Shown here piece after piece: positions 1,571 to 27,235 of a stretch of 27,235 bases of DNA. The stretch spans positions 1 through 27,235 of the IMG/VR virus record IMGVR_UViG_3300003702_000681; one strand, 5' to 3'. This DNA comes from a virus. Every line of letters begins with the position of its first letter. The first letter of the stretch is position 1. Below the pieces are notes generated by a model, which saw only the letters and a program-made list of their open reading frames with translations, did not search any database and had not been told where the DNA came from. The position numbers were made by a program, and so were the translations under genes.

Positions 1571-1571
1571 T

Positions 1572-9784: not shown

Positions 9785-11202
9785 ATTATACCTTCATAAT
9801 CTTTTAATATTTTATTTTGTGTAGTTGGATAAAAAGTACCTTTTGGATGTCCTATTTTTATAAGAACTTTAAAAATTTTAGCTTCTATATATTCATCAAT
9901 TGCTTTTTTAACTTCAGGAAATAACCCATAATCATCAAAAATAAATATAGCCTCCTTATCAGAACATTCAAATGAATTTTCTATATCACTTTTAACATGA
10001 ATATAGTCATGTACGCAATCTATAAAAACCATATCAACCATTTCAAAATTCCATTGTTGTTGATAAACATCCATAACAACATATTCGACATTATCTCTAT
10101 TAACTAATTGTTTAGATTGTTCATGTCTTTCAGGCAAATTATCAATAGCAATAACCTTACCAAACAAATTACTTAAAACTTTAGTACTGTGGCCGAGAGA
10201 AGAACCAACTTCTAATACCTTCATATTTCTATAAGCCTCTGTATCAAAGAAGTCTATAAAATCAGCTTTAAACTTTAAACTTGTTGTAGTTTTAGATTCT
10301 GTTTTATCTGGCAAACCTTCTAACATTTTTCTCTTTATATCATCAGTAAAATAATTTTCTCCTCTAACAAAGTTATGAGCCATTGGAAATTGTCTTTGTG
10401 TTGTATAAACATCTGAATATCTCGTTATCATTTGAGTTGTTCCACATTGACTGCCAACATTATATTTCGCTTTCGACTTAATATACAATTGAATCCTAAT
10501 TGACATATGTCTCATATCTAAAGCTTTATCAATCCAATTAAATGAAGTTTGTTCTATAGGTTTTTCAATCCAATAAAAATGTTTTAATGTTGGATCAATA
10601 ATATCACATATTATCTTATCCATAGTATAATCATATCTATCTGAAATAAGTAGAGCACCATACTCACCGTCTGTATACCTATTTATAATTCTATCACCTA
10701 ACTCCTTTTCTTCATCACTGAAATATATTTCAGGAGTAGAATCTTTATACTCCCCTTCTTCAAATTGCCAAAACTTTAACATTTGTTCTAAAAGTGGAAC
10801 ATCAGGATTAGATTTATCATAGATTCTATAATGATCATGAAAAACTTCTCCATCAATCTCATCTACGAAATCATTTACATATGGATTATTATCAAAAACA
10901 TTATTTACATTTTGATACGGGTTAGACCAACTAGACCATTGATTAGTATTACCAAATAATTTATTTAACAACTTTGCTGATGGTACATAAACTTCACAGT
11001 TTGGATATTTCTGTTTTAAAAGTCTCGGCATAGCTGACATTATACCCCAATCGCCTATACCATGACAAGTTCTCATAACAGTAAAACCTTGATTATCAAG
11101 ATATTCATCTGGTATTCTAAGACCCTTAGATATATCGAATCCTAAATTTTCAACTTCGCCTGTATTGTAAAGATTATTATCTAAAACCCTTAAAAATAAC
11201 AT
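9769..11202 (-). CDS. Two-domain protein: GT9-like N-terminus fused to a class I methyltransferase
   Basis: About 477 residues from an ATG at 11202. An in-frame GTG sits one codon earlier, but GGAGG is only two bases from it and five from the ATG, so I prefer the ATG. TVMRTCHGIGDWGIMSAMPR, about 45-65 residues in, resembles the opening of GT9 glycosyltransferases, where a Gly-Asp loop precedes a helix; NVGSQCGTTQMITRYSDV near residue 250 would be the equivalent of their nucleotide motif. From about residue 325 a SAM methyltransferase follows: VLEVGSSLGHST, VIAIDNLPERH, VVMDVYQQ and MVFIDCVHDYIHV. The C-terminal domain resembles methyltransferases acting on sugars. I infer that it adds and methylates, or caps, a sugar. 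The first domain is the less certain of the two. Confidence 0.7.
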   Translation of the reverse strand: MLFLRVLDNNLYNTGEVENLGFDISKGLRIPDEYLDNQGFTVMRTCHGIGDWGIMSAMPRLLKQKYPNCEVYVPSAKLLNKLFGNTNQWSSWSNPYQNVNNVFDNNPYVNDFVDEIDGEVFHDHYRIYDKSNPDVPLLEQMLKFWQFEEGEYKDSTPEIYFSDEEKELGDRIINRYTDGEYGALLISDRYDYTMDKIICDIIDPTLKHFYWIEKPIEQTSFNWIDKALDMRHMSIRIQLYIKSKAKYNVGSQCGTTQMITRYSDVYTTQRQFPMAHNFVRGENYFTDDIKRKMLEGLPDKTESKTTTSLKFKADFIDFFDTEAYRNMKVLEVGSSLGHSTKVLSNLFGKVIAIDNLPERHEQSKQLVNRDNVEYVVMDVYQQQWNFEMVDMVFIDCVHDYIHVKSDIENSFECSDKEAIFIFDDYGLFPEVKKAIDEYIEAKIFKVLIKIGHPKGTFYPTTQNKILKDYEGIICQRV

Positions 11203-11867
11203 CACCCCCTCCGCAATAAATCTTTACTAAAGTTGTCCATATAAAATTTATTTTGCTGTTCTTGCTTTTCCTTTGTTTTAGGATGATAAAGACTCATCTC
11301 TTCATGAGGTGGCAAATGAGCATAAGTTTTACAACCATCTATAAACTCATGTAAGGGTCTTACCCACCTTATATTTTCATCATTACGAAATACACGTGCT
11401 TGATAATCTGGATAATTTACCCAACCTTTTTCATCAATTCTCCAACCCCATCTCTGTACGTCCTCGTCTGTAAATCCTTCAACTACATTTACTCTTGGTA
11501 TCCAAATTAAATCCACATCATTTACTTCCAAGATTGTCTTTAAATTGAGTAACAAATTTTCATGTGGATATTCATCTGCATCTATATGAAATATATAATC
11601 TCCAATAGAATTTTCTATAACCGAATTTTTTTGAGCCGCAAAATCTTTATTAAGTTTTCTTTGATATATTTTCATTGGTTTATAAGGACCTTCTGAATGT
11701 CCGTATTGAGCAAGCCAACTATCCAATACAAACCTTACACCATCATCTTCACCATCAACACAAATAACTATTTCATCTTCCTCATCTGTTTTGTGAATTA
11801 ACATATCTAATAACCTACTTAGTTCATCATCCTCATTGTGGACTGTGATACCATAACTAATTTTCAT
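11202..11867 (-). CDS. GT2-like glycosyltransferase (GT-A fold)
   Basis: 221 residues. ISYGITVHNEDDELSRLL (3-20) is the usual GT2 start, EIVICVDGEDDG (32-43) the first acidic strand, and DFAAQKNSVIENSIGDYIF then HIDADEYP (94-101) the second strand with DxD at 96-98. ARVFRNDENIRWVRPLHEF near residues 165-185 matches the 'R-x-F-R...W...HE' block seen in waaE/KdtX-like family 2 enzymes. It probably transfers one sugar from an NDP-sugar in the cytoplasm; no membrane segment. The start overlaps the preceding gene (ATGA) and the stop forms TGATG with the next. Confidence 0.85.
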   Translation of the reverse strand: MKISYGITVHNEDDELSRLLDMLIHKTDEEDEIVICVDGEDDGVRFVLDSWLAQYGHSEGPYKPMKIYQRKLNKDFAAQKNSVIENSIGDYIFHIDADEYPHENLLLNLKTILEVNDVDLIWIPRVNVVEGFTDEDVQRWGWRIDEKGWVNYPDYQARVFRNDENIRWVRPLHEFIDGCKTYAHLPPHEEMSLYHPKTKEKQEQQNKFYMDNFSKDLLRRG

Positions 11868-12310
11868 TTAGCAGCCTCTTTAAGTATTCTCCTCGGTATA
11901 CTTTTTAAATCATCTAACATAACAATTGGTGACTCTCTCCTCATTTTTTTATAGTCGTAAGTTCGATATAAATCGTTTTTGTCAGAAACTAATAACTTCA
12001 CAGTACTGGCTAATTTTCTTCTTTTTGGATCTAATTTTCTACCATCAAAACTAACTTTGTATATTTCATTGTCTTCATCTACTAACACTAATCTACCCAA
12101 CTGTTTCAAAACTGTAACCATATTTGGTAAAGCCCTTTTTTCTTGAGTTTCCAATTGTAACCCACTCATGAGTTCAACTTTAGAATTGTCTACCTTTGTA
12201 ATACTATATTTTGGACTTATAACTAAAACTGTTCTTTTCTTCTTATTATATTTAAACGATATAATATCCCCACTAGTAACTTCATTCCAACTATAACGTA
12301 ATTTAGCCAT
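11864..12310 (-). CDS. Conserved-looking phage protein of unknown function
   Basis: 148 residues, basic. The N-terminal part (WNEVTSGDIISFKYNKKKRT then VLVISPKY, about residues 8-35) looks like a small beta-barrel or SH3/KOW-like strand pattern with an invariant-looking Gly-Asp; the remainder is rich in Lys and Arg. I recall proteins starting with a similar 'GDIISFKY...VLVISP' segment in marine T4-like phages, but cannot confirm this without a search. It overlaps both neighbours by 4-8 bases and lies between a zinc-ribbon protein and glycosyltransferases. No function is proposed. Confidence 0.65.
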   Translation of the reverse strand: MAKLRYSWNEVTSGDIISFKYNKKKRTVLVISPKYSITKVDNSKVELMSGLQLETQEKRALPNMVTVLKQLGRLVLVDEDNEIYKVSFDGRKLDPKRRKLASTVKLLVSDKNDLYRTYDYKKMRRESPIVMLDDLKSIPRRILKEAAK

Positions 12311-12758
12311 TGTCTTTTATAATCCCCATAGCTATACAAGCATCAGTAAACTCAAACTGTCCAAACTTTTCAGCACTTTCTACTGCTAATCTTCTTTCAT
12401 GATCTTCATAATCACCTTGCTCATCTTTTGGAATATCCACAACTTTAGCATAATACCAATACCAATCAGTTAGCACACCATCGGGATATATAATTCCCTT
12501 TTCTCCCATGTTTACTACAGATGGAAACCAAACAAGACCTCTGTCATCATCTATAACTTTCAAATCATTCATAAGTTGAGTATTATTTTCAGTTGACTTT
12601 TCTAAATGTTCACTATCTAAAGCAAAATGAGAATTTGTTGTCATACCACATTGAAAACACATATATGATTCAAATGGGTTACCATCTACTTCCGTTTTTT
12701 CTACAAAACAGTTATCATGTAATCCCCGACAAAGTGGACACTGTGTTTTTTGTTCCAT
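12303..12758 (-). CDS. Zinc-ribbon phage protein of unknown function
   Basis: 151 residues. Cys7, Cys10 (CPLC) and Cys34, Cys37 (CFQC) form a zinc ribbon at the N-terminus. The middle, DDDRGLVWFPSVVNMGEKG (about 71-89) followed by IIYPDG and a Trp/Tyr-rich strand, is compact and probably globular; the C-terminus is an acidic helix. Similar small proteins with a 'CPxC...CFxCG' ribbon and a 'WFP...KG.I.PDG' segment occur, as far as I recall, in marine T4-like phages, frequently without assigned function. It starts one base from the stop of the upstream glycosyltransferase. Transcription factor or virion roles are both possible. Confidence 0.68.
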   Translation of the reverse strand: MEQKTQCPLCRGLHDNCFVEKTEVDGNPFESYMCFQCGMTTNSHFALDSEHLEKSTENNTQLMNDLKVIDDDRGLVWFPSVVNMGEKGIIYPDGVLTDWYWYYAKVVDIPKDEQGDYEDHERRLAVESAEKFGQFEFTDACIAMGIIKDNG

Positions 12759-12759
12759 A

Positions 12760-14094
12760 TTAAACCTTCTTTAACTTAGGTAAATTTATTTTTTTAGATT
12801 TATCACTGCCTACTTTTTTAAGTTTTGGTAATTTTAAATTTACTGCTTGTGGCTGCTCTTCAAATTTAGGTAAATAACTATCTAATATTTTTTCAAAAAT
12901 TTGTGTCATTTTATTCATAGAAAAATTTGCTCTGTTAAATATACCTAATTTCTTAGAACCCAAAGAATACTTTCTATATTTTTTATATATATCAACCATT
13001 ACTTGAGAAGCATATTGATAATTTATAGTAAACCAATGTGCTTCATCAACATACATTTCTTCAGGAAAAGATGATTTTGATACTTTTGTCATAGTGCCAG
13101 GCAAAAGAACTGCATTATTTTTATTTAAAAAATCTTTATGTCCACTCCAATCAGAAGCAATAATAGGTTTTTCAGATAAACTAGCCTCCAATAACGGTCT
13201 TCCAAACCCCTCTCCATGAGTAAAAGTAATATGTACTTTCACTTTAGGATGATTATATAACTCATTCATCTCTTCATCTGTCATATCACCATGTAAAAAA
13301 TAAATATTTGGAAGTTTGCCACTAACAGTCGTTTTTATATCTTCTATCTTCTCTTTTATCTCATTCCTATCAATAATAGAAAAAGTAGCACCGCTAGTTT
13401 TCATTAAAAGAGCTACTGAATTTGATTTATTTTTAAATGTTTCCAAAAAAGTTTTTACCAACATACCCGCATCTTTTCTATCATCCCCTAAACCACCTTG
13501 TAGCCAGTGACCAGAATAAAGAAATAAAAATTTTTCTGGTATTTTATCCATCTCATCAACAAATTCTTTAGAAAAGTTTTTTGTCTTCTTATAAATTTCT
13601 GTATCAGCACCTTCAAAAAGAACTTCCATTGGTTTTTGTAATTTTACCTCTCCAACTTTTTGTTCTGTATTTTCATCCATTTTTTCATATGTAACAGATT
13701 CAAATATCTGTTTTACAAATTTAGATGGAACTATATTCATATCCATTCTATTAAGACCTTCAATCCATTCAGGTTTTGGAGCAGTATTTTCAATACCAGC
13801 AGTAATTCCAATATTATACTTAGCCAAAGGAGAAAATTCATTTGGTACACTGATTTGTATATGTACATCGGGTTGTTTTGGAAGATTATTTTCTTTTAAA
13901 ATTCTATCCAAAATTATTTTATCTTTTGGATTTTTTTCATTCAAAGCATTCATTGGAGTATTACCCCATCTTAAAGAATTTATATGAATATCAAATTTAT
14001 CCATATTAACAAGTGCTCTAACTAAATCTCTACTATGAGAACCATATCCACTTCGTGTAGCAACTGGTCCTGTAATTAACATTAACGGTCTCAT
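12760..14094 (-). CDS. GT-B glycosyltransferase, GT4-like, with lysine-rich repeat tail
   Basis: 444 residues. The N-terminus has TGPVATRSGYGSHSRDL (8-24), a GT4-like glycine-rich acceptor loop. FLFLYSGHWLQGG about halfway opens the second Rossmann domain, and HGEGFGRPLLEASLSEKPI in the last third carries the E-x7-E motif that binds the nucleotide-sugar. The last 25 or so residues hold two copies of LPKLKKV, separated by a short Gly/Ser/Lys linker. This basic tail is outside the catalytic fold and could bind membrane, nucleic acid or a partner. The stop is separated by one base from the following zinc-ribbon gene. Sugar and acceptor unknown. Confidence 0.85.
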   Translation of the reverse strand: MRPLMLITGPVATRSGYGSHSRDLVRALVNMDKFDIHINSLRWGNTPMNALNEKNPKDKIILDRILKENNLPKQPDVHIQISVPNEFSPLAKYNIGITAGIENTAPKPEWIEGLNRMDMNIVPSKFVKQIFESVTYEKMDENTEQKVGEVKLQKPMEVLFEGADTEIYKKTKNFSKEFVDEMDKIPEKFLFLYSGHWLQGGLGDDRKDAGMLVKTFLETFKNKSNSVALLMKTSGATFSIIDRNEIKEKIEDIKTTVSGKLPNIYFLHGDMTDEEMNELYNHPKVKVHITFTHGEGFGRPLLEASLSEKPIIASDWSGHKDFLNKNNAVLLPGTMTKVSKSSFPEEMYVDEAHWFTINYQYASQVMVDIYKKYRKYSLGSKKLGIFNRANFSMNKMTQIFEKILDSYLPKFEEQPQAVNLKLPKLKKVGSDKSKKINLPKLKKV

Positions 14095-14102
14095 TCTATC
14101 CT

Positions 14103-15500
14103 CTATGCTTTAAATATTGTATAACGTTTTCGTGGCATCCACTTTTCAAAAGCAGTATCCATATGATCTATAAAGTTTTGACACATAGCTTTAGCAGACA
14201 TCATAGCTTCATCTCCCATTACAAATTCATGACCTTTCATACCACATTCCTTACGTTTCTCTGATCCCATATCATACCACTCTTTAAGAGCATCAGCAAA
14301 ATCTTCAAATTTAGGTCTGTCATCAAAAATATATGGAGTTGGTATTGAACCTTGTAAACTTCTATTAGAAGGCCAAACTGGTTTTACCCATTCACCCCAA
14401 GTTAAATCTTCATTATCTTTCCACTTCTTTGCTTCGTGTAATGAATGTATCCAACTATAATCATCAACAGTAAGAAATTTACCTTTATATTCAAATCCAC
14501 ATTGATCTTGCATACCACCGGTAACATTTACTGATATCGGTGTCGCACACATTAATGATTCACAAGTGCCAAGACCAAACCCCTCATTAGATGCCATATT
14601 AATTGTTACATCAGCTATATTGTAAAAAAAACACAATTCTCTATCTTCTAATTTTTTGTGTGAAAATATAACATCATAATCTGGACAACAATTTCTTACA
14701 ACCTCTGGCAAATCTGTACCGTTTTCATCACGCGGTTGAGTGTGCATTATAAGAGCACACTTATCGGCCTTCTCTTTAGGTAACATATCACAAAATGTTT
14801 TATATGCCATTATAACATCCCCAGGTAACTTACGGCGAATATTTCTGTTATTCCAAAATACTATAAAATCATAATTCTTACCTTCAGTCATATTTCTTTT
14901 AAAATTTAATAAATCTCCCCATTCTTTAACATCAAGTTCATTAATGGGATAATAGTTTTCTTCATTAATACCGTGTGGAATATAAGTATTATCCCAATCA
15001 TTAGTTGGTCTAATCCTGCGAACATTATTAACAATATTAACAGTTTGTTTAGATATATTCATAATCAAATCACAAGACTCATAAAATGGTTCATTCCACA
15101 TTGGATAAGGTAAATCATCCCATATATTATAATAAAATATAGGTATGTTTTGTCTAAGCTCATGTTCCATCTGATATAAAAATCCCCAAAATCGAGGATC
15201 TGTATAATGAAGAATTGCATCCACTCCCATTTCCATATTAATTACAGCTCTTAATAAATCAGTATTACCATAACCACTTATAGGATAAATTTTAAGATAA
15301 GCATCTTTAACTCCAGTTTGCTTCCTCATTGCTTCATTCATATCTACAATTTTACCATCATCAGGATGTCTAATAGCACCACCAATTTGTACCCAATCGT
15401 AATGTTGTAACGTACCCAATACAAATTCACGAGACATAGTTCCTACTCCAGATGACATTCTTAGATCATCCGACATTAATAAAATTTTCTTTTTATTCAT
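14103..15500 (-). CDS. GT-B glycosyltransferase, GT4-like
   Basis: 465 residues. ILLMSDDLRMSSGVGTMSRE (6-25) matches the GT4 N-terminal loop. FIVFWNNRNIRRKLPGDVI near residues 215-235 marks the start of the second domain with its conserved basic residues, and NEGFGLGTCESLMCATPISV near 305-325 contains the E-x7-E nucleotide-sugar motif. Trp-rich stretches (WDDLPYPMWNEPFY) are unusual and probably shape the acceptor pocket. It is the first gene of the glycan block in the direction of transcription and its start lies inside the end of a 48-residue reading frame. The next gene is a second GT4-like enzyme, eight bases away, so the two probably add successive sugars. Confidence 0.85.
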   Translation of the reverse strand: MNKKKILLMSDDLRMSSGVGTMSREFVLGTLQHYDWVQIGGAIRHPDDGKIVDMNEAMRKQTGVKDAYLKIYPISGYGNTDLLRAVINMEMGVDAILHYTDPRFWGFLYQMEHELRQNIPIFYYNIWDDLPYPMWNEPFYESCDLIMNISKQTVNIVNNVRRIRPTNDWDNTYIPHGINEENYYPINELDVKEWGDLLNFKRNMTEGKNYDFIVFWNNRNIRRKLPGDVIMAYKTFCDMLPKEKADKCALIMHTQPRDENGTDLPEVVRNCCPDYDVIFSHKKLEDRELCFFYNIADVTINMASNEGFGLGTCESLMCATPISVNVTGGMQDQCGFEYKGKFLTVDDYSWIHSLHEAKKWKDNEDLTWGEWVKPVWPSNRSLQGSIPTPYIFDDRPKFEDFADALKEWYDMGSEKRKECGMKGHEFVMGDEAMMSAKAMCQNFIDHMDTAFEKWMPRKRYTIFKA

Positions 15501-16268: not shown

Positions 16269-16677
16269 AATCGTTCCTCTTTTGCCTTTTAGGTGGTTTA
16301 TCTGATGTACAAAATTTAGCACATCTATGAAATTCATCTAAACCCTTTAATATTTGTACTTCACTATTATAAATATATTCAAATCTAACTCTATCCAATT
16401 TTCCAGCGTTATCATTATCAACAATATTAAACCACACAAAATCACCTGGTTTTAAATTATTACCAACTCTTATATTAGTTTTAAAATGTAAACTAGACTC
16501 ATACTCTAATAAAAACTTCTTTAAATCCTTTGTAGAAACAGTACCATCTTTGTACCACAAACGTAAATAAAAAACTATTGAATCAGCACTAATTACTGAT
16601 AATTTATCTATAACATCTTTTTCATATGGCTTATTTAAAAAATGGAATAAATTCATTCTAACATTTACTTTCATCAT
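16243..16677 (-). CDS. Hypothetical protein, 144 residues
   Basis: I do not recognise this protein. It begins MMKVNVRMNLFHFL and a second ATG immediately follows the first. The middle has a predicted strand-rich part, NLKPGDFVWFNIVDND (about residues 75-90), where a Gly-Asp-Phe-Val-Trp run resembles a small beta barrel. The C-terminus is strongly basic and probably disordered (KPPKRQKRNDYESSNSRK). The ATG overlaps the nuclease stop (TAATG), and the end overlaps the SLOG gene by 26 bases. The tight junctions argue that it is a real gene of the operon. A nucleic-acid-binding role is suggested only by the basic tail. Confidence 0.6.
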   Translation of the reverse strand: MMKVNVRMNLFHFLNKPYEKDVIDKLSVISADSIVFYLRLWYKDGTVSTKDLKKFLLEYESSLHFKTNIRVGNNLKPGDFVWFNIVDNDNAGKLDRVRFEYIYNSEVQILKGLDEFHRCAKFCTSDKPPKRQKRNDYESSNSRK

Positions 16678-17552
16678 TATTTAACTCCCGCATCACAATA
16701 CTCTGTCTGATTAAAATCGCAAAATCTACAGTTCTTTTTAGATGCTTCCTTCTTATAAATATATTCAGTATTATATTCTCCATCAGAATTAAAACATTCT
16801 GTCATAAACTCATCTAATCTTTTGACTACCTGATTAATTGATGGTTTTCCATTTGCAGGCACAAACTTTTGAACTCTCTTCTGTGGATAATCTGTATTCT
16901 CCCACAATTTTCTTTTAACTATAAAAAACTCTACTTCAATTTTTTCTATGGGGTGGTTATATTGTTTAGCATAAAATTGCTTATATAGTAGTAACTGATC
17001 ACTTTTTAATTTATCAGCCTTCATATATTTATTCCAACCCATAGTAGAAGTCTTTATATCATATATCTTGATTACATTTCTAACTGTATCTTTGATAACA
17101 ACATCCAAATATCCAACAAACTTTATATTATTTGGCATATTATAATCAAGAGGAACTTCTATACCAACCAACTCATAACCTTTCTTACTAAAATATTGAG
17201 CTCTCTTCTTTCGTAAAAAATTAAGTATCTCTACTCCTTGTGTATAAAACTCAACCATATCTCTCTCGGTACAAAACTCCTCTCCACCATTTTCTTTAAG
17301 AGCTTCCTCAAAATTCCGTTTCATTCTAGTTCGTAACATATCTTCTAATGGAAGTTGTTCTGCTAACTTAGCAGTATCATTATACATTACAGTTAAAAAT
17401 GCCTGAATGACTTCATGCATAGATTTACCAAAGAGAGTATAAATACTTTCTTTGAACTCTCTCTTACCATCTATATATGCAGTCTTCCATCGGTGTGGAC
17501 ATTGTGCCCACATTGAATATTGACTGTAGGATATATTTTTCACTTGCCCCAC
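16677..17552 (-). CDS. PD-(D/E)XK nuclease with Fe-S cysteines (RecB/AddB/Cas4-like)
   Basis: 291 residues. SYSQYSMWAQCPHRW with Cys18 opens the fold. GKSMHEVIQAF holds His46; GYLDVV places Asp150; YDIKTST gives Asp165 and Lys167 of the nuclease motif, and a later Gln-containing QLLLYKQFYAKQY helix is typical of RecB nucleases. CRFCDFNQTEYC at the end supplies Cys275, Cys278 and Cys286. One N-terminal and three C-terminal cysteines are the 4Fe-4S arrangement of AddB, Cas4 and related exonucleases. All catalytic positions are present. The likely task is single-strand or end processing during phage recombination-dependent replication or host DNA degradation. The GTG at 17552 has only a weak ribosome site and a second GTG occurs three codons on, so the exact start is uncertain. 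Confidence 0.85.
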   Translation of the reverse strand: MGQVKNISYSQYSMWAQCPHRWKTAYIDGKREFKESIYTLFGKSMHEVIQAFLTVMYNDTAKLAEQLPLEDMLRTRMKRNFEEALKENGGEEFCTERDMVEFYTQGVEILNFLRKKRAQYFSKKGYELVGIEVPLDYNMPNNIKFVGYLDVVIKDTVRNVIKIYDIKTSTMGWNKYMKADKLKSDQLLLYKQFYAKQYNHPIEKIEVEFFIVKRKLWENTDYPQKRVQKFVPANGKPSINQVVKRLDEFMTECFNSDGEYNTEYIYKKEASKKNCRFCDFNQTEYCDAGVK

Positions 17553-17935
17553 TTACCATTCTTTACAATCGTTGCCATAATTCCATAATTAGATACATCA
17601 AGAAATGCATCTTCTATTGGTTCACCATTTACTGCTGCTTCCTTACCACCCATCAATAAGGTTTTCAATCTTTGAATTTTATCATTCATTCTAAACCATA
17701 ACCCCGTTAGTGATAATTTAACTTCTTCAGGTGTTTGTAATTGTGTACCAACTGAAATATTACCTGGACCATAATCATGTTGTTTATACAAAAATAATTC
17801 ATATTGTTCTCGTTGTAATCTACGAAACTCTGCAGTCATCTGGGGCCAATCTTCTTCCATTTGTTGAGTAATAGATTTTACTTTAGTAGATTCATAATCT
17901 ACTTTTGTTTTTGATTCTTTTATTGCTTTCTTCAT
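17540..17935 (-). CDS. Nucleotide-modification-associated domain protein (DUF1599-like)
   Basis: 131 residues. HDYGPGNIS (53-61) followed by a GLWFRMNDKIQRLKTLL helix and DAFLDVSNYGIMATIV near the end match the pattern of the DUF1599 family (nucleotide modification associated domain 1): a Tyr-Gly loop, an Asp-Lys-x2-Arg-Leu helix and a final Asp-x3-Tyr helix. Members are all-helical, related in outline to MazG/dUTPase-type nucleotide hydrolases, and several sit in phage gene sets for modified DNA bases. It lies directly after a Mom-like gene (ATGA overlap), which fits that context. The N-terminal 30 residues are charged and probably disordered. Actual activity is unknown. Confidence 0.75.
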   Translation of the reverse strand: MKKAIKESKTKVDYESTKVKSITQQMEEDWPQMTAEFRRLQREQYELFLYKQHDYGPGNISVGTQLQTPEEVKLSLTGLWFRMNDKIQRLKTLLMGGKEAAVNGEPIEDAFLDVSNYGIMATIVKNGKWGK

Positions 17936-18555
17936 TTTAGTCTCTTTATTTGTCTTTTAATTTTTTTATTAAGATAGTATACATAAATATATTTAGGTTT
18001 TCTGTTCTTAAAAAATATATTTTTATCCCCAGCATTATATCTTCTTTTTAATTCTCTACCATATGGTCTTTTATCTTGATTTAAAGACCTAGTGTGATAT
18101 TCTTTACCATCCACCATCAACACTCTTGCAGGAGATGTTTCTCCTAAATACTCAAAATTTGTAGCTTTATATATTATTCCTGTATGACCATAATGTTGAT
18201 CAGCAAATGAAACCACAACCTCTACATCAGTATTTTGTTTTAACCACCTCAAAGTTTTTCCAATGAAATAGCTTTCTGTATTCTTTGGCGTATCATCTAT
18301 ACAAACTAATCTCCTTAACTCCGTACACCTATCAGGATTAATTGGATTATATTTTTTAGCAGTATGCGGCATTGATGGCATAGCATATAACATAGCACCT
18401 ATCATTTTGGGTAATCCAAAATTACCCTCTGTATATAAACCGAAATGGTGGTAAGATTGAATGCCATTTATATTGTGTGAATAATGATATTTCTCTATAA
18501 AACTGGTAACTGCTTTCCGGTTTATGTACTCAACTGTGAAGTTGGTTACACTCAT
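17932..18555 (-). CDS. Mom-like DNA-modification protein, copy 2
   Basis: 207 residues. FIEKYHYSHN (19-28), TELRRLVCID (79-88) and VVVSFADQHYGHTGIIYKAT then NFEYLGE (about 113-140) line up with phage Mu Mom, a GNAT-fold enzyme that converts adenine in DNA to N6-carbamoylmethyladenine-type products. The same three blocks occur in the larger Mom-like protein at 20772-21536, but the two are clearly diverged, so they are not a recent duplication. The C-terminus is very basic (KKIKRQIKRLK), in keeping with DNA binding. The gene overlaps its neighbours by four bases each way. Mom-family membership is inferred from motif order; the base and chemistry modified here are unknown. Confidence 0.75.
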   Translation of the reverse strand: MSVTNFTVEYINRKAVTSFIEKYHYSHNINGIQSYHHFGLYTEGNFGLPKMIGAMLYAMPSMPHTAKKYNPINPDRCTELRRLVCIDDTPKNTESYFIGKTLRWLKQNTDVEVVVSFADQHYGHTGIIYKATNFEYLGETSPARVLMVDGKEYHTRSLNQDKRPYGRELKRRYNAGDKNIFFKNRKPKYIYVYYLNKKIKRQIKRLK

Positions 18556-19001
18556 AAGCCAATCTTACGAATCTCCTCAACTGTTCTACCATACTTTATT
18601 AAAATATCAGTAAGTTCAGCTTGACCCCCATGTGATAACTCATACATGTCTACAGCATCTGATGCTTCACGCAAACTAATCTGTAAATGTTTAGCTACTA
18701 TTTCATAAACCCATTTTGGATACTTCATCTCTTTATCTCCTTTAATATATTTTAACCATTGTCTTTTCTTTGGTAAAATATCTGTATAAACTTTATATAA
18801 TTCTTTTGGTTTTAATGGATATTTCTGTACTTCATTTACAAGTTCTATCCACTCCATTTTCATTGAAAGAAAACGATTAACCATATAATTTGACCACGAC
18901 TTTTTATCTTCATCTGAAATATCATCCCAATAATTAGAACGCTGTTGAGATGTTATAGCATTTATATGATCAAATAAATTCTTCCTTTTAATCTTCGCCA
19001 T
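18552..19001 (-). CDS. Probable clamp-loader small subunit, gp62-like
   Basis: 149 residues from an ATG at 19001 (MAKIKRKNLFDHINAIT); the frame is open up to 19040 but the extra 13 residues lie inside the preceding gene. NLFDHINAIT, then SWSNYMVNRFLSM (about 36-48), ELVNEVQ and LPKKRQWLKYIKG follow the order seen in gp62 proteins of marine T4-like phages, where 'NRxLS', a helix with 'N', and a 'P-x-K-R-x-W/F' segment recur. T4 gp62 is 187 residues. It would form the clamp loader with the gp44-like ATPase encoded at 19846-20784 and load the sliding clamp. Position in the replisome operon supports the call. Sequence similarity in this family is low, so the assignment is moderate. Confidence 0.65.
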   Translation of the reverse strand: MAKIKRKNLFDHINAITSQQRSNYWDDISDEDKKSWSNYMVNRFLSMKMEWIELVNEVQKYPLKPKELYKVYTDILPKKRQWLKYIKGDKEMKYPKWVYEIVAKHLQISLREASDAVDMYELSHGGQAELTDILIKYGRTVEEIRKIGL

Positions 19002-19233
19002 CTTGCTTAAACTTATCTGGCACTTTCCCACAATTACCACAACTGTATACCTGAATTGGTATTAGTGCTTCTTGACCCGTAGGTGAAACTATTGGTGAAA
19101 GTCTTTTTATAAAAAATGCTGAGATAAAAACAGAATTGTTACAATCCTCACATTTCATAGTTTCAGCATCTTTCAAATCTACTTGTATTTGAGTTTGTTC
19201 TTTTGGTAACGGTTTTCTTGGTTTCATATTCAT
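18988..19233 (-). CDS. Small zinc-ribbon phage protein, 81 residues
   Basis: Cys28 and Cys31 (MKCEDC) and Cys65 and Cys68 (CGNCG) form a complete zinc ribbon, with a central ISAFFIKRLSPIVSPTGQEA strand region between them. I recall close relatives with 'SPTGQE' between the two knuckles next to clamp-loader genes in marine T4-like phages, with no assigned role. A strong GGAG stands upstream of the ATG at 19233. Its stop overlaps the gp62-like start by 14 bases, so translation is coupled. Possible roles are transcription or replication accessory factor; nothing in the sequence decides. Confidence 0.72.
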   Translation of the reverse strand: MNMKPRKPLPKEQTQIQVDLKDAETMKCEDCNNSVFISAFFIKRLSPIVSPTGQEALIPIQVYSCGNCGKVPDKFKQDGED

Positions 19234-19243
19234 CTTATTACTC

Positions 19244-19849
19244 CTATATAATATCGTCTACTAACCCATACTCTAAACATACTTTCGCATTCCACATCAA
19301 ATCATGTTTCAATATTTCATCTATTTTTTTCATTGGAACTTTTGTGTATTCTTTATATACACTTTTAATTGTTTCCATCATTAGATCAAGATTCTGTTTT
19401 TCATCTTCAAACTCTGAATACTTTCCCCAAAAATTTGAAGATAATTGATGAATTAACATATAAGAATTTCTACTCATATATCTTTTATTACCTACTACTG
19501 AAAGAAATGTTGCCGCACTCGCACAGAATCCATCTACATATGTTTCAACTGGAACTTTACATCTCAATATTGTATCCATAGATGAAATACCTGCGGTGAT
19601 TGATCCACCTCCTGAATTTATCAATACTTTAAGTATGGGTGGGTTTATATCTAAATTATTTCCAAGAGTCAAACTTTTAGATTCTAACTCACCTATCTTT
19701 TTATTCAATTCTGCTGCACTTTCTCTATTTACATTAGCATAATAATAAATTTTATTTTCATGAACTGCTATATGTTTCTCAGTCACCGCATTCTGTGCAT
19801 TTTTCTTTTCAGGGGCTTTCTTTACACCCCAATACTTTTCATCTATCAT
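19244..19849 (-). CDS. ClpP-like serine protease
   Basis: 201 residues, the usual ClpP length. LINSGGGSITAG (76-87) is the oxyanion/substrate strand, DGFCASAATFL (106-116) carries the nucleophile Ser111, MLIHQLSS (131-138) the catalytic His134, and HDLMWNAKVCLEYGLVDDII (182-201) the Asp183 and the closing 'EYGLVD' typical of ClpP. The catalytic triad is therefore complete. No partner ATPase is visible here. Phage ClpP-like proteins can be head-maturation proteases or act with host ClpX/A; placement between the two clamp-loader genes, away from any head genes, favours neither. It overlaps the clamp-loader ATPase stop by four bases (ATGA) and precedes the zinc-ribbon gene by ten. Confidence 0.88.
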   Translation of the reverse strand: MIDEKYWGVKKAPEKKNAQNAVTEKHIAVHENKIYYYANVNRESAAELNKKIGELESKSLTLGNNLDINPPILKVLINSGGGSITAGISSMDTILRCKVPVETYVDGFCASAATFLSVVGNKRYMSRNSYMLIHQLSSNFWGKYSEFEDEKQNLDLMMETIKSVYKEYTKVPMKKIDEILKHDLMWNAKVCLEYGLVDDII

Positions 19850-20784
19850 TTTATGACTCCTAATAATTCTATTAACATAGCCATAGAATTAATCTCTTTA
19901 TCAACCACCTGAGCATCTGACAATTGATACTTAGCTATAGTTAAAATACTTTCTGCTACATGTCCTTTACCATAACTATCAACTTCATCATAGAGTAAAC
20001 GAAACAAATCAGCAAAGTCTGATATCTTATTATCAGCTAACATCTTTCTAATAGTAACAAAAGCATCTTTTTTACTTTGTGTCTTTAACACATTTACTAA
20101 CTGAGAACAAAACACATTTATATTTAAATCAATAGCAACCAAATTATCTTGTTCAATCGATAACTTACCATCAACTACCTGCCGTTGAGCAAAATTAATA
20201 ATCCTACGAATATCAGGATACCCACCATTAACTAACGTAGCTACATCATCAATCTGAAAATCTACTCCCTCTTCATGCAGTATGTCATATAAATGTGATG
20301 CGACTTCCTTTCTTGATGGTGGAACTATTTGAAATGGTTGACAACGACTTTGTATTGGATCAACAATTCTCTCTACATAGTTACAAGTCAATATAAACCT
20401 AGTGTGTTTAGAAAAAGTCTCCATAAGGTTGCGTAAAGCGGCTTGTGCGTTAGGTGTAATGTAATCGCACTCATCCAATATGATAACCTTCATATCTTTA
20501 AATCCAATAGTGGAAGCAAAACTGCGAACCTTATTACGAACTGTATCTACGCTATTCTCATCAGAAGCATTAATATACAGATGATCACATTCTATATTAT
20601 TAACCAATAACTTTGCAAGAGTGGTCTTACCCGTACCAGCCCTTCCATAAAAAAGAAGATGTGGTAAGTCTCCACTCTCAAGGTATCTAGATACTTTACT
20701 TTTTAGATGCTCATTTCCAATATAAGTATCTAACGTCATAGGGCGGTACTTTTCAACCCATAAAGTGTGTTCTAATTTTTCCAT
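19846..20784 (-). CDS. Clamp-loader AAA+ ATPase, gp44/RFC small-subunit-like
   Basis: 312 residues (T4 gp44 is 319). LWVEKYRPMTLDTYIGNE (8-25) is the RFC box at the N-terminus; GRAGTGKTT (47-55) is Walker A; VIILDECDYIT near residue 100 is Walker B; LTCNYVERI is sensor 1 and IQSRCQPF the SRC arginine-finger motif. GGYPDIRRIINFAQ near 190 is sensor 2. The C-terminal collar domain follows. It uses ATP to open the sliding clamp and place it on primed DNA, normally as a tetramer with one small subunit. The start lies 13 bases inside the end of the Mom-like gene 1. Confidence 0.94.
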   Translation of the reverse strand: MEKLEHTLWVEKYRPMTLDTYIGNEHLKSKVSRYLESGDLPHLLFYGRAGTGKTTLAKLLVNNIECDHLYINASDENSVDTVRNKVRSFASTIGFKDMKVIILDECDYITPNAQAALRNLMETFSKHTRFILTCNYVERIVDPIQSRCQPFQIVPPSRKEVASHLYDILHEEGVDFQIDDVATLVNGGYPDIRRIINFAQRQVVDGKLSIEQDNLVAIDLNINVFCSQLVNVLKTQSKKDAFVTIRKMLADNKISDFADLFRLLYDEVDSYGKGHVAESILTIAKYQLSDAQVVDKEINSMAMLIELLGVIK

Positions 20785-21536
20785 TTATCGTTATCTACCT
20801 CTATTTTTCTAATTTCAATATCATGTTTATAGTTTTTAGGATACTTCATTTCAGGATGTTTCATAACACTGCGAAATTTCCTAATCTCTTTTTTATTACC
20901 CAAAAAGTAGATGTATCTATGTTTGCTAGCTTCTTTCTTTAACCAAAATGTATGACCAATCTGTTTCGGCAACTTTTTAGGGTCAGCTGAACCAAATTTA
21001 GAATATACACTTCTACTGTGCATCCATTCCCCATTCTCTGACAATCTCAAAGAATAAGTAGGCGCCAATTGAAAATCTCCACATCCTTGATATATCCAAT
21101 TTGTTGCTTGATAAATAGCTCCATCATGATTTTGTTCAGGATCAGCATACGATACCAAAACCTTTATTTTTGGAGCGTTTTCCTTTAACCATTTAAACGA
21201 TAATGATATTGCCAATGATTCTATATTTTTTCCATAACCATCATATATAAACAATCTAGTTAACTCTAAAAGGTTCTTAGTTTTTAAAATATCTTCTGAA
21301 AAAATAGAACCTAAAACTCTTCTCCCGACAGGAAATCCATAACAAGCAACACCTATCAACTTCTCTTCAGGTTCCACAAAGAATTTATGCTCATCATCAG
21401 TTTGATAAAAAATTCCAAGCGGATACCTACAAGAAGATAATCTACCACTATAATGATTCTTTTCTATTATTTCCCTAGCCAATGGTTTATAGATTGGTCT
21501 AATAGAAACTCTAGACTTATCTACATACGATTCCAT
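20772..21536 (-). CDS. Mom-like DNA-modification protein, copy 1
   Basis: 254 residues. IIEKNHYSGR (23-32), LLELTRLFIYD (near 90-100), VLVSYADPEQNHDGAIYQAT followed by NWIYQG (about 125-152), and a late HRYIYFLG strand match the motif order of phage Mu Mom and related GNAT-fold DNA modification enzymes. The VSYAD-x4-HDGAIYQATN block is the best preserved and is shared with the copy at 17932-18555. Mom proteins alter adenine N6 and so block restriction enzymes. The gene sits between the clamp and clamp-loader genes, with its ATG directly behind the clamp stop (TAGATG), so it is made early together with the replisome. Exact modification unknown. Confidence 0.78.
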   Translation of the reverse strand: MESYVDKSRVSIRPIYKPLAREIIEKNHYSGRLSSCRYPLGIFYQTDDEHKFFVEPEEKLIGVACYGFPVGRRVLGSIFSEDILKTKNLLELTRLFIYDGYGKNIESLAISLSFKWLKENAPKIKVLVSYADPEQNHDGAIYQATNWIYQGCGDFQLAPTYSLRLSENGEWMHSRSVYSKFGSADPKKLPKQIGHTFWLKKEASKHRYIYFLGNKKEIRKFRSVMKHPEMKYPKNYKHDIEIRKIEVDNDKWKN

Positions 21537-22253
21537 CTATACATCTTGTTCAGCAACAAGATAGTAAGTAGCATCATACTCATCAATCTTAAAATTGATA
21601 CGGGCCAAACCTTGTGAACTTACTTCCAATGTAGCACTTTCACATTCTTTATTAGCTACCAACACATCTCTAAATAAATTAGCATTAAAAGATATATTAT
21701 CAACAACTTCATAGGATTCTGTTTTGACTGGCAAAGTAACACGATTAGTGTTAATTTCAGCATACCCAATCACAACCTTTACACCATCATCATTTGTCAA
21801 TACTGTAAAGTTATCTGTATCAGCCAAAGCACCTTTACCAGCAACAAATTTAGTCATAAAAGACTTATCAACTTTTATCTTAATCTCAAAATCAGGTACA
21901 GATTTTAAATTAGGTGGTGTACCGATAACAGACAAATCTGACAACATATAATTTACATTAGAAGTACTATCAGATATCTTTAAAGATACTACCTTATCTC
22001 CTACTTTTGTCAAATTCATAATAATATCATCAGACATAACAGAAAGCAATTTTACTAATTGTTCTGTATTATATACGCCCAACACAGCATCTTCAAATTT
22101 CCAATTCTTCATTGTCAATTCACCAAGAAGATTTTTATCACCTGTAATAAAGCGTGTGGAAAGCATATCCCCATCACTTTTAATTACAACCGAAGGACAA
22201 TTTCCTCCAAGATAATATTTATCAATGAACCTATTTAATGAATGTTTATTCAT
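21537..22253 (-). CDS. DNA polymerase sliding clamp, gp45-like
   Basis: 238 residues against 228 in T4. The start MNKHSLNRFIDKYYL, the alternating strand pattern, the LSDLSVIGTPPNLKSVPDFE linker (about 104-123) between the two similar halves and the end ATYYLVAEQDV agree with trimeric T4-type clamps. Clamps lack catalytic residues, so recognition rests on this layout and on position directly after the polymerase and before the loader ATPase. AAGGAG nine bases upstream supports the ATG at 22253; an ATG in between is closed by a stop after three codons. A hairpin in the 59-base gap upstream may influence expression. Confidence 0.85.
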   Translation of the reverse strand: MNKHSLNRFIDKYYLGGNCPSVVIKSDGDMLSTRFITGDKNLLGELTMKNWKFEDAVLGVYNTEQLVKLLSVMSDDIIMNLTKVGDKVVSLKISDSTSNVNYMLSDLSVIGTPPNLKSVPDFEIKIKVDKSFMTKFVAGKGALADTDNFTVLTNDDGVKVVIGYAEINTNRVTLPVKTESYEVVDNISFNANLFRDVLVANKECESATLEVSSQGLARINFKIDEYDATYYLVAEQDV

Positions 22254-22312: not shown

Positions 22313-24799
22313 TCAAAAAAATCTTTCTATGGATGTATTTTTATTTACTGGCTCATCCCATTTCAATGTTTCATAAAACATCATGATTTTTTTCTTAAGC
22401 ATTTGAGCATACATCTTTTTATAATCTATATACTTCTTAATAAATTCTATTATTTGAGGTGGATCTTCATATCCCTTATAACCACAAGACTCTAAACCCA
22501 ACTCATTTTGTCTTAAATAAACCCACTTAATTTTTTCCGATGAAGTAATCTGTTCATACTTTCTACTTAAACCGAAGTAATCAATCAAATCGTTGTATGT
22601 TATAGAAGCTTTAACATGTGCTGGTGAACCTTTTGCAAAATTAGTAAACTTACCCACCTTCCCATTAGAATACTTCTTCAAATTTTTCACACCTGTCGGT
22701 ATAGCAATTCTATCAAAATCCACCAGCTTCATGGACTCTTTAAAATTTATAATTCTTTCATCTATCTTATCCTTTGGTACAGTAGCTAGTATATCTTCTA
22801 ATACACTTTTTAATAATTCACCCATAGCTTTAGGAAAATTACTACGAACCAAGTCCAGACCCTTAACATGCAATTTATTTACCTTAACCCCATTGTCATT
22901 TATAATCTTCAAACCATACCGTTTCTTCACAATGAATAAACCAGACTTAGCTATCAACTCCTGCTTTATCTCAAACCTATGTTTATCTAAATTTAAGAAC
23001 TTCTTAGCAAAGTAATCATAAGACTTATTTAGAAACACCTGCATCTCATCAGCTACATCTAATATTACTTTACTCATCATTGTCTCAGTAAATGTTGTAT
23101 TTGGAAATCGTTTTTCAATTAATGGAAGAGCTGAATAAAAAACCGAATCTGTATCTATGTAAATACAATAATCTTTATCATCACCAAGCTGTTTATTATA
23201 AAAATAATTTCCCATTTTCTTAGTAAACTTAATCAATTCTTGACCTGTAAGTGTGGTAGCCTCAGCATTATCCAAATCATAAAACCTAAATACTGGCAAA
23301 CCCAATACACCATAGAGAGAATTTAGAATAACTTTCTGTGTCAGCTGCCTGCTCTTAAAATATATATACTTATCATTATCTCCAGCATCACCAAACTTCT
23401 TCATCAGTTTCCTATACTCTACACGAGTATCAAACCATTTTGCCAATAAAGCTGGAATTAAACCTTGTTTATCACTACGATAGAGAACTCCATTAGAAGA
23501 TACCGAAACCTCATTCTTATCAAAGAAGTCCTTTAATTCTGTTTCTGTGAGTTTCCCTTTTTCTTTTCCGTTGGATTCAAGAGTATAAGTTTTTGACGTG
23601 CCCCTTAAAAACTCCTCAGCATTCCAACCAACAAGTTTTCCAATTTTTGTTTCGGGTGATATATTCAATGACATAATAACAGATGGATACATAGAAGTAA
23701 TATCTAGATCAAATACCCAATCGTGCTTCCCTCTTTGTGGTGTTTGTACATAAGCACCAGTAAATTTACTTTCTTTTTTAAATCTTGGTGGTTTATTCGG
23801 CGCTATCACTCCCAAATTCTTTAAATATACTAATATAGCACCTTCCAAATATCGAGACGAAAAATAAATATCCTCATAAGGTACATGTCCTACGTGACAC
23901 ACACCACGGGCCATATCAATAAAATCTAATTTATCATGCATCTTCTTTACAAGTCTAACGTCATGGATATTATATTCTACAAATTTATTTATATCATTCT
24001 CATATAAATCATTAAGTGTTCCGCTATACTTAACCTTATTTTCTCCTAACTCATGTTCAGCAACAGCATCCAATCGATAAGAAGATAACTGCGTATAAGT
24101 GAATAATTTATATAATGAAAAGTAATCCAAACAACTAACCCCACCAAACATATATCTCTTACGGTGTTTATTCCATTGAACTTCTTGAATTGGTGATAAC
24201 ATATCAGCAATATTACTACCAAGAACCTTACAAGCTCTATTATATAAATACGGCATGTCAAATACATCTATATTCCAACCTGTAATTATTGTAGGTTTAA
24301 ACTCTAAATACTTTACAAGGAATCTCTGTAATAATGAATACTCATCTTCAAAACTCTCTATAATACAATTACCTTTTGATTGTAATGTCAACTTCTTTTT
24401 CTCATCCAATACAAACGCATAATAAATATCATCATCAGAATTATAAACAGCAATAGATGTTATACGATTATCAGCTTCAGTAGGATTTGGAAATCCTTTG
24501 GTAACTTCTACCTCAATATCAATTATCATTATTTTATGGTTAGCTGATAGTTCTTCTGAATCCGCATATTGGTCTACCAACATACGAGTTTCAGGTGAAA
24601 CATCTGATTCAAAGAGATTAGGCGTATCTATATCAAACTTAAATACTTTTTTAAGTTTGTCACCATACAAAGATACATAAGTGCCAGCTCTACTTTTTAC
24701 ATAAGCATAACGTTTATATGGAATACAATAATAACCCTTTTTATCATCCCATATATGAACTCTATTTTTACGACTCTCATAATAAATATTTTGATACAA
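22313..24799 (-). CDS. Family B DNA polymerase, T4 gp43-like
   Basis: 828 residues (T4 gp43 is 898). Proofreading domain: Exo I MIIDIEVEV with Asp94 and Glu96, Exo II GWNIDVFDMPYLY, Exo III YNIHDVRLV. Polymerase domain: motif A DLDITSMYPSVI, motif B KVILNSLYGVLG and motif C YIDTDSVF, all with intact catalytic residues. The extreme C-terminus SIERFF looks like a clamp-binding peptide, as at the end of gp43. It replicates the phage genome together with the clamp and loader encoded just downstream. Start is TTG at 24799, preceded by AAGAGG at good spacing; there is no ATG that would keep the N-terminal strands. The gene follows the terminator of the receptor gene and so needs its own promoter in the 75-base gap, which I cannot identify. 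Confidence 0.97.
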   Translation of the reverse strand: MYQNIYYESRKNRVHIWDDKKGYYCIPYKRYAYVKSRAGTYVSLYGDKLKKVFKFDIDTPNLFESDVSPETRMLVDQYADSEELSANHKIMIIDIEVEVTKGFPNPTEADNRITSIAVYNSDDDIYYAFVLDEKKKLTLQSKGNCIIESFEDEYSLLQRFLVKYLEFKPTIITGWNIDVFDMPYLYNRACKVLGSNIADMLSPIQEVQWNKHRKRYMFGGVSCLDYFSLYKLFTYTQLSSYRLDAVAEHELGENKVKYSGTLNDLYENDINKFVEYNIHDVRLVKKMHDKLDFIDMARGVCHVGHVPYEDIYFSSRYLEGAILVYLKNLGVIAPNKPPRFKKESKFTGAYVQTPQRGKHDWVFDLDITSMYPSVIMSLNISPETKIGKLVGWNAEEFLRGTSKTYTLESNGKEKGKLTETELKDFFDKNEVSVSSNGVLYRSDKQGLIPALLAKWFDTRVEYRKLMKKFGDAGDNDKYIYFKSRQLTQKVILNSLYGVLGLPVFRFYDLDNAEATTLTGQELIKFTKKMGNYFYNKQLGDDKDYCIYIDTDSVFYSALPLIEKRFPNTTFTETMMSKVILDVADEMQVFLNKSYDYFAKKFLNLDKHRFEIKQELIAKSGLFIVKKRYGLKIINDNGVKVNKLHVKGLDLVRSNFPKAMGELLKSVLEDILATVPKDKIDERIINFKESMKLVDFDRIAIPTGVKNLKKYSNGKVGKFTNFAKGSPAHVKASITYNDLIDYFGLSRKYEQITSSEKIKWVYLRQNELGLESCGYKGYEDPPQIIEFIKKYIDYKKMYAQMLKKKIMMFYETLKWDEPVNKNTSIERFF

Positions 24800-24874: not shown

Positions 24875-27235
24875 TTAGAAACTAACTGCAATACCAACAT
24901 TGAAATATCTTGGTGTTCCAAGAAATACTTCTGCGTTGTTAGCTGCGTGAACTTTATCCCCGTAACTGTTGTATTGACTGTGATCTACTGCATCTTGAAC
25001 ATATGTTGCGTCTGTCGCATTAAACACATGAGCGAATGCGGTTAAATCATACCCACCAATAGAAGGTAAAGCATATGAAGCATGGAGATCCACTTTGGAA
25101 TATCCAGGTGCTTGCCATACTTGTTCTCTGTCTGCATCTGCGTCTGAACCATCGTACTCTCTTGCGCCAGGACTCCAATCAGAATAATTATCATCATACT
25201 GATTGTATACTGCCTGTAATTTAAGACCACTTATCGGAGTAAGTGTACCAACAAGAGCGAATGAAGTTTGAGGCATATCACCGACAAACAAACCATCAAG
25301 TGCGTAAGAATACGGAGTGGTCGTTTGTCCAATGACTTGACCATCTTCGTTAAACTCATCTTCTTGATAATTTCCATCTGCATCACCATTAAACTTCCAA
25401 CTTCCAAGACTTACTATAGCATCTAACCTAAGTAAATCAAGTACTTGTGTGGAAGCTTCAACTTCAACACCTTGGTGTTTCTGATTTATCCCCGAAAGGA
25501 AAATAACATCAGTATCACCACTTGAACCTTGTCCGCTTGTTACAGATTTGGTAAGGTTTCTATCTTGCCAATCTGTACTATAAGCACTAACTTTAACTGC
25601 TACTTTATCTACACTAAAATTAACACCAGCTTCTGAACTGATGAATCTTTCGTTTGCAGGATCTGAAGCAACTGTACCATCAAAGTAAATCACATTATCC
25701 ATAATAGGTGGCTTTTCAACAATCCCGAAGTTACCGAAAACACTAATGTTATCAGCAACATCATACATTGCTCCACCTTTCCATTGTAAAGTAGAAATAG
25801 GATCAGCTGTGATCTTTTCATCTGCTACAGTAAAATGGTCTTGGTATGAATATGCAATTTTAGATAATCCTACCATTCCATAAGCAGAAAGTGGACCTGA
25901 AGCATAAGCTCCTTGAACAAATCCGCCTAACCAATCAACGGTAGTTTCATTGTGATAAGCGATTATATCACCTAACTCAACTCTTTTACCATCGGCTGCG
26001 TTATCATCAGCATAATCCATATAGTAATCACCGCCCATTAGATCACGGACTTCACGTGCATGTTCTATACCAGCAGTTCTCCAATCTAAACCAACTTGTA
26101 ATTTAAGTTCATCACTCAAATCATAATTCAATTTAGAAATAAAACCAAGTGTATTCTGACGATTAATACTATTCCTCAAAATACCAACTGATTGGTTATT
26201 TCCATCACCATGTGTTCTTGTGATAACTCTTTTGTCTACATAGACTGTATCATCATCACCCGAATTCATAGCTATAAGAGCATTCCAATCACGAGTCCAG
26301 GGACTACGACCATAATAAAATTTATAGTCATCATCACCTAAGTTACCATCAGCATCCATTGTAGGGATTCTACCATAAGTACCTGTACCACCACCTGAAC
26401 CACCACTCCAATACAATACTGAACTCAGTCTCATATCATCGCTAATGGTTAAGAAATGGTTAAGGTTTACCAATGGTTTATGAAAGAAGTTTTCTCTTTC
26501 ATTAAGGTAATTAGGATCGTGTCTAGCAACCGTTTTTGCACCATACATATACCAGTATTGTTTACCTGTATATGATGGATCAACTGGTGACCAGTTTTGG
26601 TTGAACTTATGTCCTACATCTACAAACTGACCATCTTCACCAAGTGCTTCAGTATCATACCCATCTACACTCTCAGCAAATTCGGCATCGTATGCACCGA
26701 TATTCTGTTTGTATAAATTCTGACCATGACGCTGTGGAGCACCAATTGCGTATAATTCAAATCGGTTATCCTTATTCAGTGCGTAACTTGCACCAAAGTA
26801 ATATGCCCATGCATCCGTCCATGTTTTGTCAATGACACCATCACCTGTTTTTCTTACAATAGTACCACTCAAGGCAAATTTATCACCTATCATACCACTA
26901 TTGTAGTTTACAGTGGATTTTATGAATCCACCTGCCCCAACTTCTTGTTTAATCTTACCGCCTTTTTCATGACGAGTAGGATCAGTTATGATGTTCATAG
27001 TTCCACCAATGGAAGGAGTAGCTAAGTTAACAGCACTTAAACCGCGCTGCATCTGAATGGAATGTGCAGCGTCTGCTACACCATCCCAGTTAGACCAATA
27101 GACCCAACCGTTTTCCATATCGTTTTGTGGGACTCCGTTAATCATAACGGCTACATTTCGTTGGTTAAACCCACGAACATTGATACGAGCATCACCCGCA
27201 CCACCACCTTGTTGCGTTGCATACACACTTGGTGT
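24875..27235 (-). CDS. TonB-dependent outer-membrane receptor (N-terminus cut by window edge)
   Basis: The frame is open to the right edge (codons for Thr-Pro-Ser precede the first in-frame GTG), so about 786 C-terminal residues are present and the signal peptide and TonB box are missing. The visible start is mid-plug: TPSVYATQQGG, GDARINVRGFNQRNVAVMIN, GVPQNDMENGWVYWSNWDG and IGGTMNIITD are plug-domain motifs of TonB-dependent receptors. The remainder is a long series of alternating strands and charged loops, as in the 22-strand barrel, and the last residues YFNVGIAVSF end in Phe, the outer-membrane insertion signal. It would import a scarce nutrient, such as a metal chelate or glycan, using TonB energy. 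G+C is clearly higher than in the phage genes. Substrate unknown. Confidence 0.9.
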   Translation of the reverse strand, partial: TPSVYATQQGGGAGDARINVRGFNQRNVAVMINGVPQNDMENGWVYWSNWDGVADAAHSIQMQRGLSAVNLATPSIGGTMNIITDPTRHEKGGKIKQEVGAGGFIKSTVNYNSGMIGDKFALSGTIVRKTGDGVIDKTWTDAWAYYFGASYALNKDNRFELYAIGAPQRHGQNLYKQNIGAYDAEFAESVDGYDTEALGEDGQFVDVGHKFNQNWSPVDPSYTGKQYWYMYGAKTVARHDPNYLNERENFFHKPLVNLNHFLTISDDMRLSSVLYWSGGSGGGTGTYGRIPTMDADGNLGDDDYKFYYGRSPWTRDWNALIAMNSGDDDTVYVDKRVITRTHGDGNNQSVGILRNSINRQNTLGFISKLNYDLSDELKLQVGLDWRTAGIEHAREVRDLMGGDYYMDYADDNAADGKRVELGDIIAYHNETTVDWLGGFVQGAYASGPLSAYGMVGLSKIAYSYQDHFTVADEKITADPISTLQWKGGAMYDVADNISVFGNFGIVEKPPIMDNVIYFDGTVASDPANERFISSEAGVNFSVDKVAVKVSAYSTDWQDRNLTKSVTSGQGSSGDTDVIFLSGINQKHQGVEVEASTQVLDLLRLDAIVSLGSWKFNGDADGNYQEDEFNEDGQVIGQTTTPYSYALDGLFVGDMPQTSFALVGTLTPISGLKLQAVYNQYDDNYSDWSPGAREYDGSDADADREQVWQAPGYSKVDLHASYALPSIGGYDLTAFAHVFNATDATYVQDAVDHSQYNSYGDKVHAANNAEVFLGTPRYFNVGIAVSF

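Follow-up and report, generated by a model that had tools for sequence, protein, structure and literature searches.

A marine T4-like phage carries, within its replisome operon, two genes for Mom-family GNAT proteins, here called MomA and MomB, which belong to two old lineages and are each intact at the active site. We consider it likely that both proteins modify bases of the phage's own DNA as a protection against restriction and other DNA-recognising defences, the modified position being probably the N6 of adenine and the targets of the two enzymes most likely different. The window analysed, i.e. the whole stretch of DNA under study, is a linear fragment of 27,235 bases from IMG/VR (virus record IMGVR_UViG_3300003702_000681), and the closest isolate by its family B DNA polymerase (PolB) is Microcystis phage Mel-JY01, at 46.5% identity.

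The operon is compact and lies entirely on the minus strand. It begins with a gp43-like PolB (22313..24799; phrog_262, 7e-186) and a gp45-like sliding clamp (21537..22253; phrog_223, 2.3e-11), followed by MomA (254 aa; 20772..21536), the gp44/RFC-like AAA+ large subunit of the clamp loader (19846..20784; phrog_168, 1.8e-81), a ClpP-like protease (19244..19849; PF00574, 1e-27), a small CxxC..CxxC protein of 81 aa (18988..19233) whose placement between gp44 and gp62 is conserved among relatives, the gp62-like small subunit of the clamp loader (18552..19040; phrog_225, 1.2e-14), MomB (207 aa; 17932..18555), a DUF1599 protein (131 aa; 17540..17935) and a PD-(D/E)XK exonuclease (16677..17552; PF12705, 2.7e-18). 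Short gaps occur after PolB and after ClpP. Elsewhere neighbouring genes touch or share bases: the overlap is 4 nt for gp44/ClpP, gp62/MomB and MomB/DUF1599, and 13 nt for MomA/gp44 and DUF1599/exonuclease. These coordinates make co-transcription and translational coupling likely. The sequence-only reading had placed both mom genes and the DUF1599 gene in the replisome operon, and this arrangement was confirmed. A scan with the late-promoter motif TATAAATA returned 11 matches against 8.2 expected, and a sigma-70 promoter scan gave matches below chance. The ClpP-like protease is present in some relatives and missing from others; a PfkB-family kinase (e.g. L087:5346-6110) was found between gp44 and the CxxC gene at 24 loci, the place being taken elsewhere by the ClpP-like protease or by nothing. 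After the operon, window positions 866-15500 hold a long series of predicted glycosyltransferase, sugar-nucleotide and methyltransferase-like genes, two of the glycosyltransferase-like genes being conserved throughout the lineage.

Both ORFs, read earlier as Mom-like, match the Mom family over nearly their full length. The Pfam Mom profile (PF25680) matched residues 5-204 of MomB (3e-45) and 11-234 of MomA (1.2e-43), with scores for the two proteins of 154.8 and 149.6 bits against a cut-off of 27.1 and coverage of positions 1-194 and 3-202 of the 202-position profile, and PHROG 1384, annotated as 'Mom-like DNA modification protein', matched MomB at 1.5e-55 and MomA at 1.1e-46. The proteins are about 30% identical to each other (32% over the aligned part) and have in common the motif blocks recognised by the sequence-only reading (ELTRL/ELRRL and VSYAD-H-GAIYQATN/VSFAD-H-GIIYKATN), together with NIESLAI/NTESYFI, an N-terminal HYS and a C-terminal histidine. 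When profiles built from relatives were compared with the PDB, the only convincing molecule was phage Mu Mom (8BV8; 3.3e-29 for MomA, 3.4e-30 for MomB), an entry entitled 'phage Mu protein Mom inactive mutant S124A'. The AlphaFold2 models were confident (pLDDT 87.4 for MomA and 87.7 for MomB) and predicted a GNAT core in both proteins; Foldseek again placed 8BV8 first in the PDB (E 3.3e-14 and TM by query 0.62 for MomA; E 2.8e-13 and TM 0.73 for MomB), followed for both models by ordinary GNAT acetyltransferases.

When MomA and MomB were aligned with 15 Moms from isolates, the position altered in the inactive-mutant structure, Mu S124, corresponded to S107 in MomA and S95 in MomB, and this serine was identical in every row. 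At least 95% identity over all rows was found in 19 columns, of which MomA and MomB match all 19 and Mu Mom 17; Mu R154 is replaced by histidine in both MomA and MomB, and Mu Q214 by lysine. The conserved active-site residues also include H28/H24, Y29/Y25, R94/R82 and D132/D119 (MomA/MomB). The likeness to Mu Mom extends over the full-length family match, the GNAT fold and the active-site columns including S124. Since all of these columns are intact, neither protein can be regarded as a degenerate second subunit.

A phylogeny of 89 representatives, built by a quick method and containing some long branches (Mu, Melnitz-2), resolved two deep clades, a separation that the sequence-only reading had named as a point to check; the deepest joins of this tree are unsure on account of the quick method and the long branches. 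The A clade (SH-aLRT 96) comprises MomA, the Mom of Polaribacter phage P12002L (45.8% identical to MomA) and many uncultured T4-like contigs, and the B clade (SH-aLRT 97) comprises MomB together with isolate Moms of ICP1, S-SSM7, Corynebacterium phage Darwin and Enterococcus, Geobacillus, Klebsiella and Vibrio phages. Among the latter, the Moms of ICP1, S-SSM7, Efquatrovirus and Darwin are 39-44% identical to MomB over the full length. The split between A and B lies far above the tips, and the tree rules out a recent tandem duplication of mom. A third type, C, lies within the A clade at 43-48% identity to A and, in several relatives, maps well away from the operon. Two adjoining mom genes were found in a further lineage of large contigs, one grouping with C and the other nearer to the A of the operon.

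Both mom genes are under strong purifying selection, the median dN/dS being 0.068 for MomA and 0.096 for MomB, similar to the values of PolB (0.072) and the clamp (0.065), and 11 alignment columns carry one fixed residue in the A group and another in the B group. These observations bear on the possibility that the second Mom is redundant or raises dosage, adding the same modification at overlapping targets. The fold and active-site residues common to the two proteins would suit such a role, but neither the depth of the divergence, nor the clade-specific columns, nor selection of this strength on both genes would be expected from it, and we regard it as unlikely. The age and divergence of the proteins, the selection on them and their joint retention instead suggest that MomA and MomB most likely differ in target.

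Joint retention was seen throughout the relatives collected. All 20 Mom-positive viral records of at least 50 kb contained two or more Moms, eleven of them with an A-clade protein and B (several also with C) and nine with a C and A pair; the sample was recruited through similarity to A or B and so gives no measure of genotype frequency. Shorter records with a single Mom are fragments, often ending where the second would be. Relatives sought through PolB instead had no Mom in any of the six newly searched records of at least 50 kb. Among isolates, Mel-JY01 has none, and ICP1, S-SSM7 and P12002L have one each, in contrast to the two of the window phage; P12002L is a smaller phage and its Mom adjoins a DNA methylase. 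No second Mom place per record was found among 50,697 isolate records (one place in 235 of 235 and in 312 of 312 for the respective queries), a search that a very distant copy could escape.

The finding of A and B together in a single operon across about 60 contigs, and the two or more copies in every long Mom-positive record, are also what would be expected if MomA and MomB formed one heteromeric enzyme, for instance a DNA-binding subunit with a catalytic one. Against this stand the near-invariant active-site columns, complete in both proteins, the single Moms of isolates, the sister lineage that pairs A with C types and has no B, and the variable gene positions. The places of A and B are unchanged in the close relatives of the window, but B is found upstream of the TonB gene or PolB at four loci (L030, L060, L062, L172), an A type after DUF1599 at L105-L112, and A outside the operon at L164. 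That both genes persist through this reshuffling speaks for a need for both, and against an enzyme that requires production from adjacent genes; we therefore hold a heteromer to be quite improbable and keep to two separate enzymes.

The best contextual evidence for MomA acting on DNA is provided by the slot between the sliding clamp and gp44, where DNA methyltransferases replace Mom in the same operon. The slot holds MomA at 81 loci, a TSPPY-type methyltransferase at 10, a putative glycosyltransferase at 9, a DruA-family protein at 8 and nothing at 41, these loci overlapping so that the tallies do not represent independent genomes. The TSPPY-type protein, a putative DNA methyltransferase of about 400 residues (408 aa), takes the place of MomA in Mom-less sisters (L238:4183-5406, L193:3440-4666), and its match to the Pfam N6/N4 DNA methylase is below threshold (2e-5). 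At L193 the PolB is 83% identical to that of the window, yet the methyltransferase replaces MomA. The nine slots with a glycosyltransferase-like protein indicate that the slot need not serve DNA modification only. GNAT folds serve many substrates, and one or both Moms could in principle act on host DNA, RNA or protein and not protect the phage DNA; this is highly improbable, given that Mu Mom is by far the best GNAT match for both proteins and that a DNA methyltransferase is swapped in at the MomA slot.

The DruA-family slot protein (L150:13400-14608 and relatives; PF14236, 1.4e-17; PADLOC DruA, 7e-16) takes its name from a bacterial defence system and is here located inside a phage replisome operon. 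A protein of about 200 aa directly after MomB at about nine loci (L012:1948-2544, L014:6558-7172, L036:5882-6487, L071:10620-11213) bridges the two families, with a PHROG Mom match at 9e-7 and a Pfam DruA match just below the cut-off (3.4e-6); in hhalign it matched MomB at E 3.9e-8 and DruA-like phage proteins at E 3.8e-7. Druantia DruA may, from these profile matches, be a distant Mom-type GNAT.

The DUF1599 protein had been read as part of the modification system, a claim that did not hold. Its match to nucleotide-modification-associated domain 1 (PF07659) is short, covering 42 residues (82-123) at 29.2 bits against a cut-off of 25 (1.2e-6), and the gene follows gp62 in relatives with or without Mom, many of them Mom-less, including Mel-JY01, whose homologue is 48.5% identical. 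DUF1599 as a partner of Mom is ruled out by these occurrences; the gene belongs to the operon and not to the Mom pair. Phages of the crAss-like Bacteroides group contain distant relatives of the protein. Mel-JY01 has the order PolB-clamp-gp44-Zn-gp62-DUF1599 in common with the window phage and differs in having no Mom; between its DUF1599 and exonuclease genes it carries a C5-cytosine methyltransferase and an S-adenosylmethionine synthase. The 81-aa CxxC protein was considered as an analogue of Com, which is unsupported, the same gp44-gp62 place being occupied by it in Mom-less phages; no Com was recognised in the window.

Phage Mu has a single mom, which is a late gene and follows com, as opposed to the two mom genes in the replisome operon of the window phage. 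The mom gene of Mu is tightly controlled, and metal (iron) and acetyl-CoA binding or chemistry have been reported or proposed for its protein; the conserved candidate residues suggest, by analogy, that the same chemistry could apply to MomA and MomB. The product of Mu Mom has been described as N6-(1-acetamido)-adenine (PMC10286901), and the authors of a jumbo-phage study treat Mom as a GNAT acyltransferase acting on N6 of adenine (PMC7824862).

What we infer for the phage, namely a DNA substrate, adenine chemistry, different target contexts, a protective purpose and joint expression with the replisome, would operate as follows. Two complete Mom-type GNAT enzymes, catalytically intact as judged by their active-site columns, would each transfer a group to a base, by analogy with Mu probably adenine at N6, in particular contexts of the phage DNA while infection proceeds, and would thereby defeat host restriction enzymes and other defences that recognise DNA. 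If the target sequences differ, the pair would cover sites that a single enzyme leaves bare. With their genes inside the replisome operon, the enzymes would be available as DNA is synthesised, in contrast to the late mom of Mu, and the position of the genes is consistent with modification coupled to replication, as proposed in the sequence-only reading; no clamp-binding peptide was recognised by eye in MomA or MomB.

That relatives have two or three Moms, or a methyltransferase where MomA would stand, suggests that the phage DNA is protected in layers. A fuller version, in which two or three Moms with different motifs or chemistries write on one genome and the genes next to the clamp are exchangeable cassettes, with DNA methyltransferases or DruA-like GNAT proteins as the alternatives, is offered tentatively, and we lean somewhat against it. 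By retaining two or three old types of Mom, for the most part inside the replisome operon, this widespread marine lineage would indicate that momylation can be combinatorial and early, as against the single, late and tightly controlled Mom of Mu. Such deep, co-retained sets tied to that operon may not have been reported before, within our thin coverage of the literature. MomA and MomB constitute natural pairs for asking what sets the target choice of Mom, and the methyltransferase swap marks the junction of clamp and clamp loader as a place to seek new DNA-modifying enzymes.

The window edge carries a gene for a TonB-dependent receptor (24875-27226, minus strand), which in dozens of related contigs has ribonucleotide reductase on one side and PolB on the other; this repeated placement rules out an assembly chimera and indicates that the receptor is phage-borne. 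All phage copies of the receptor, together with three MAG contigs, group in a single supported clade that is nested within receptors of Marinimicrobia (Fidelibacterota), with identities of up to 78%. This nesting points to Marinimicrobia as hosts, and the phage probably infects a member of that phylum. To our knowledge few phages of Marinimicrobia are known, which adds to the value of the apparent host.
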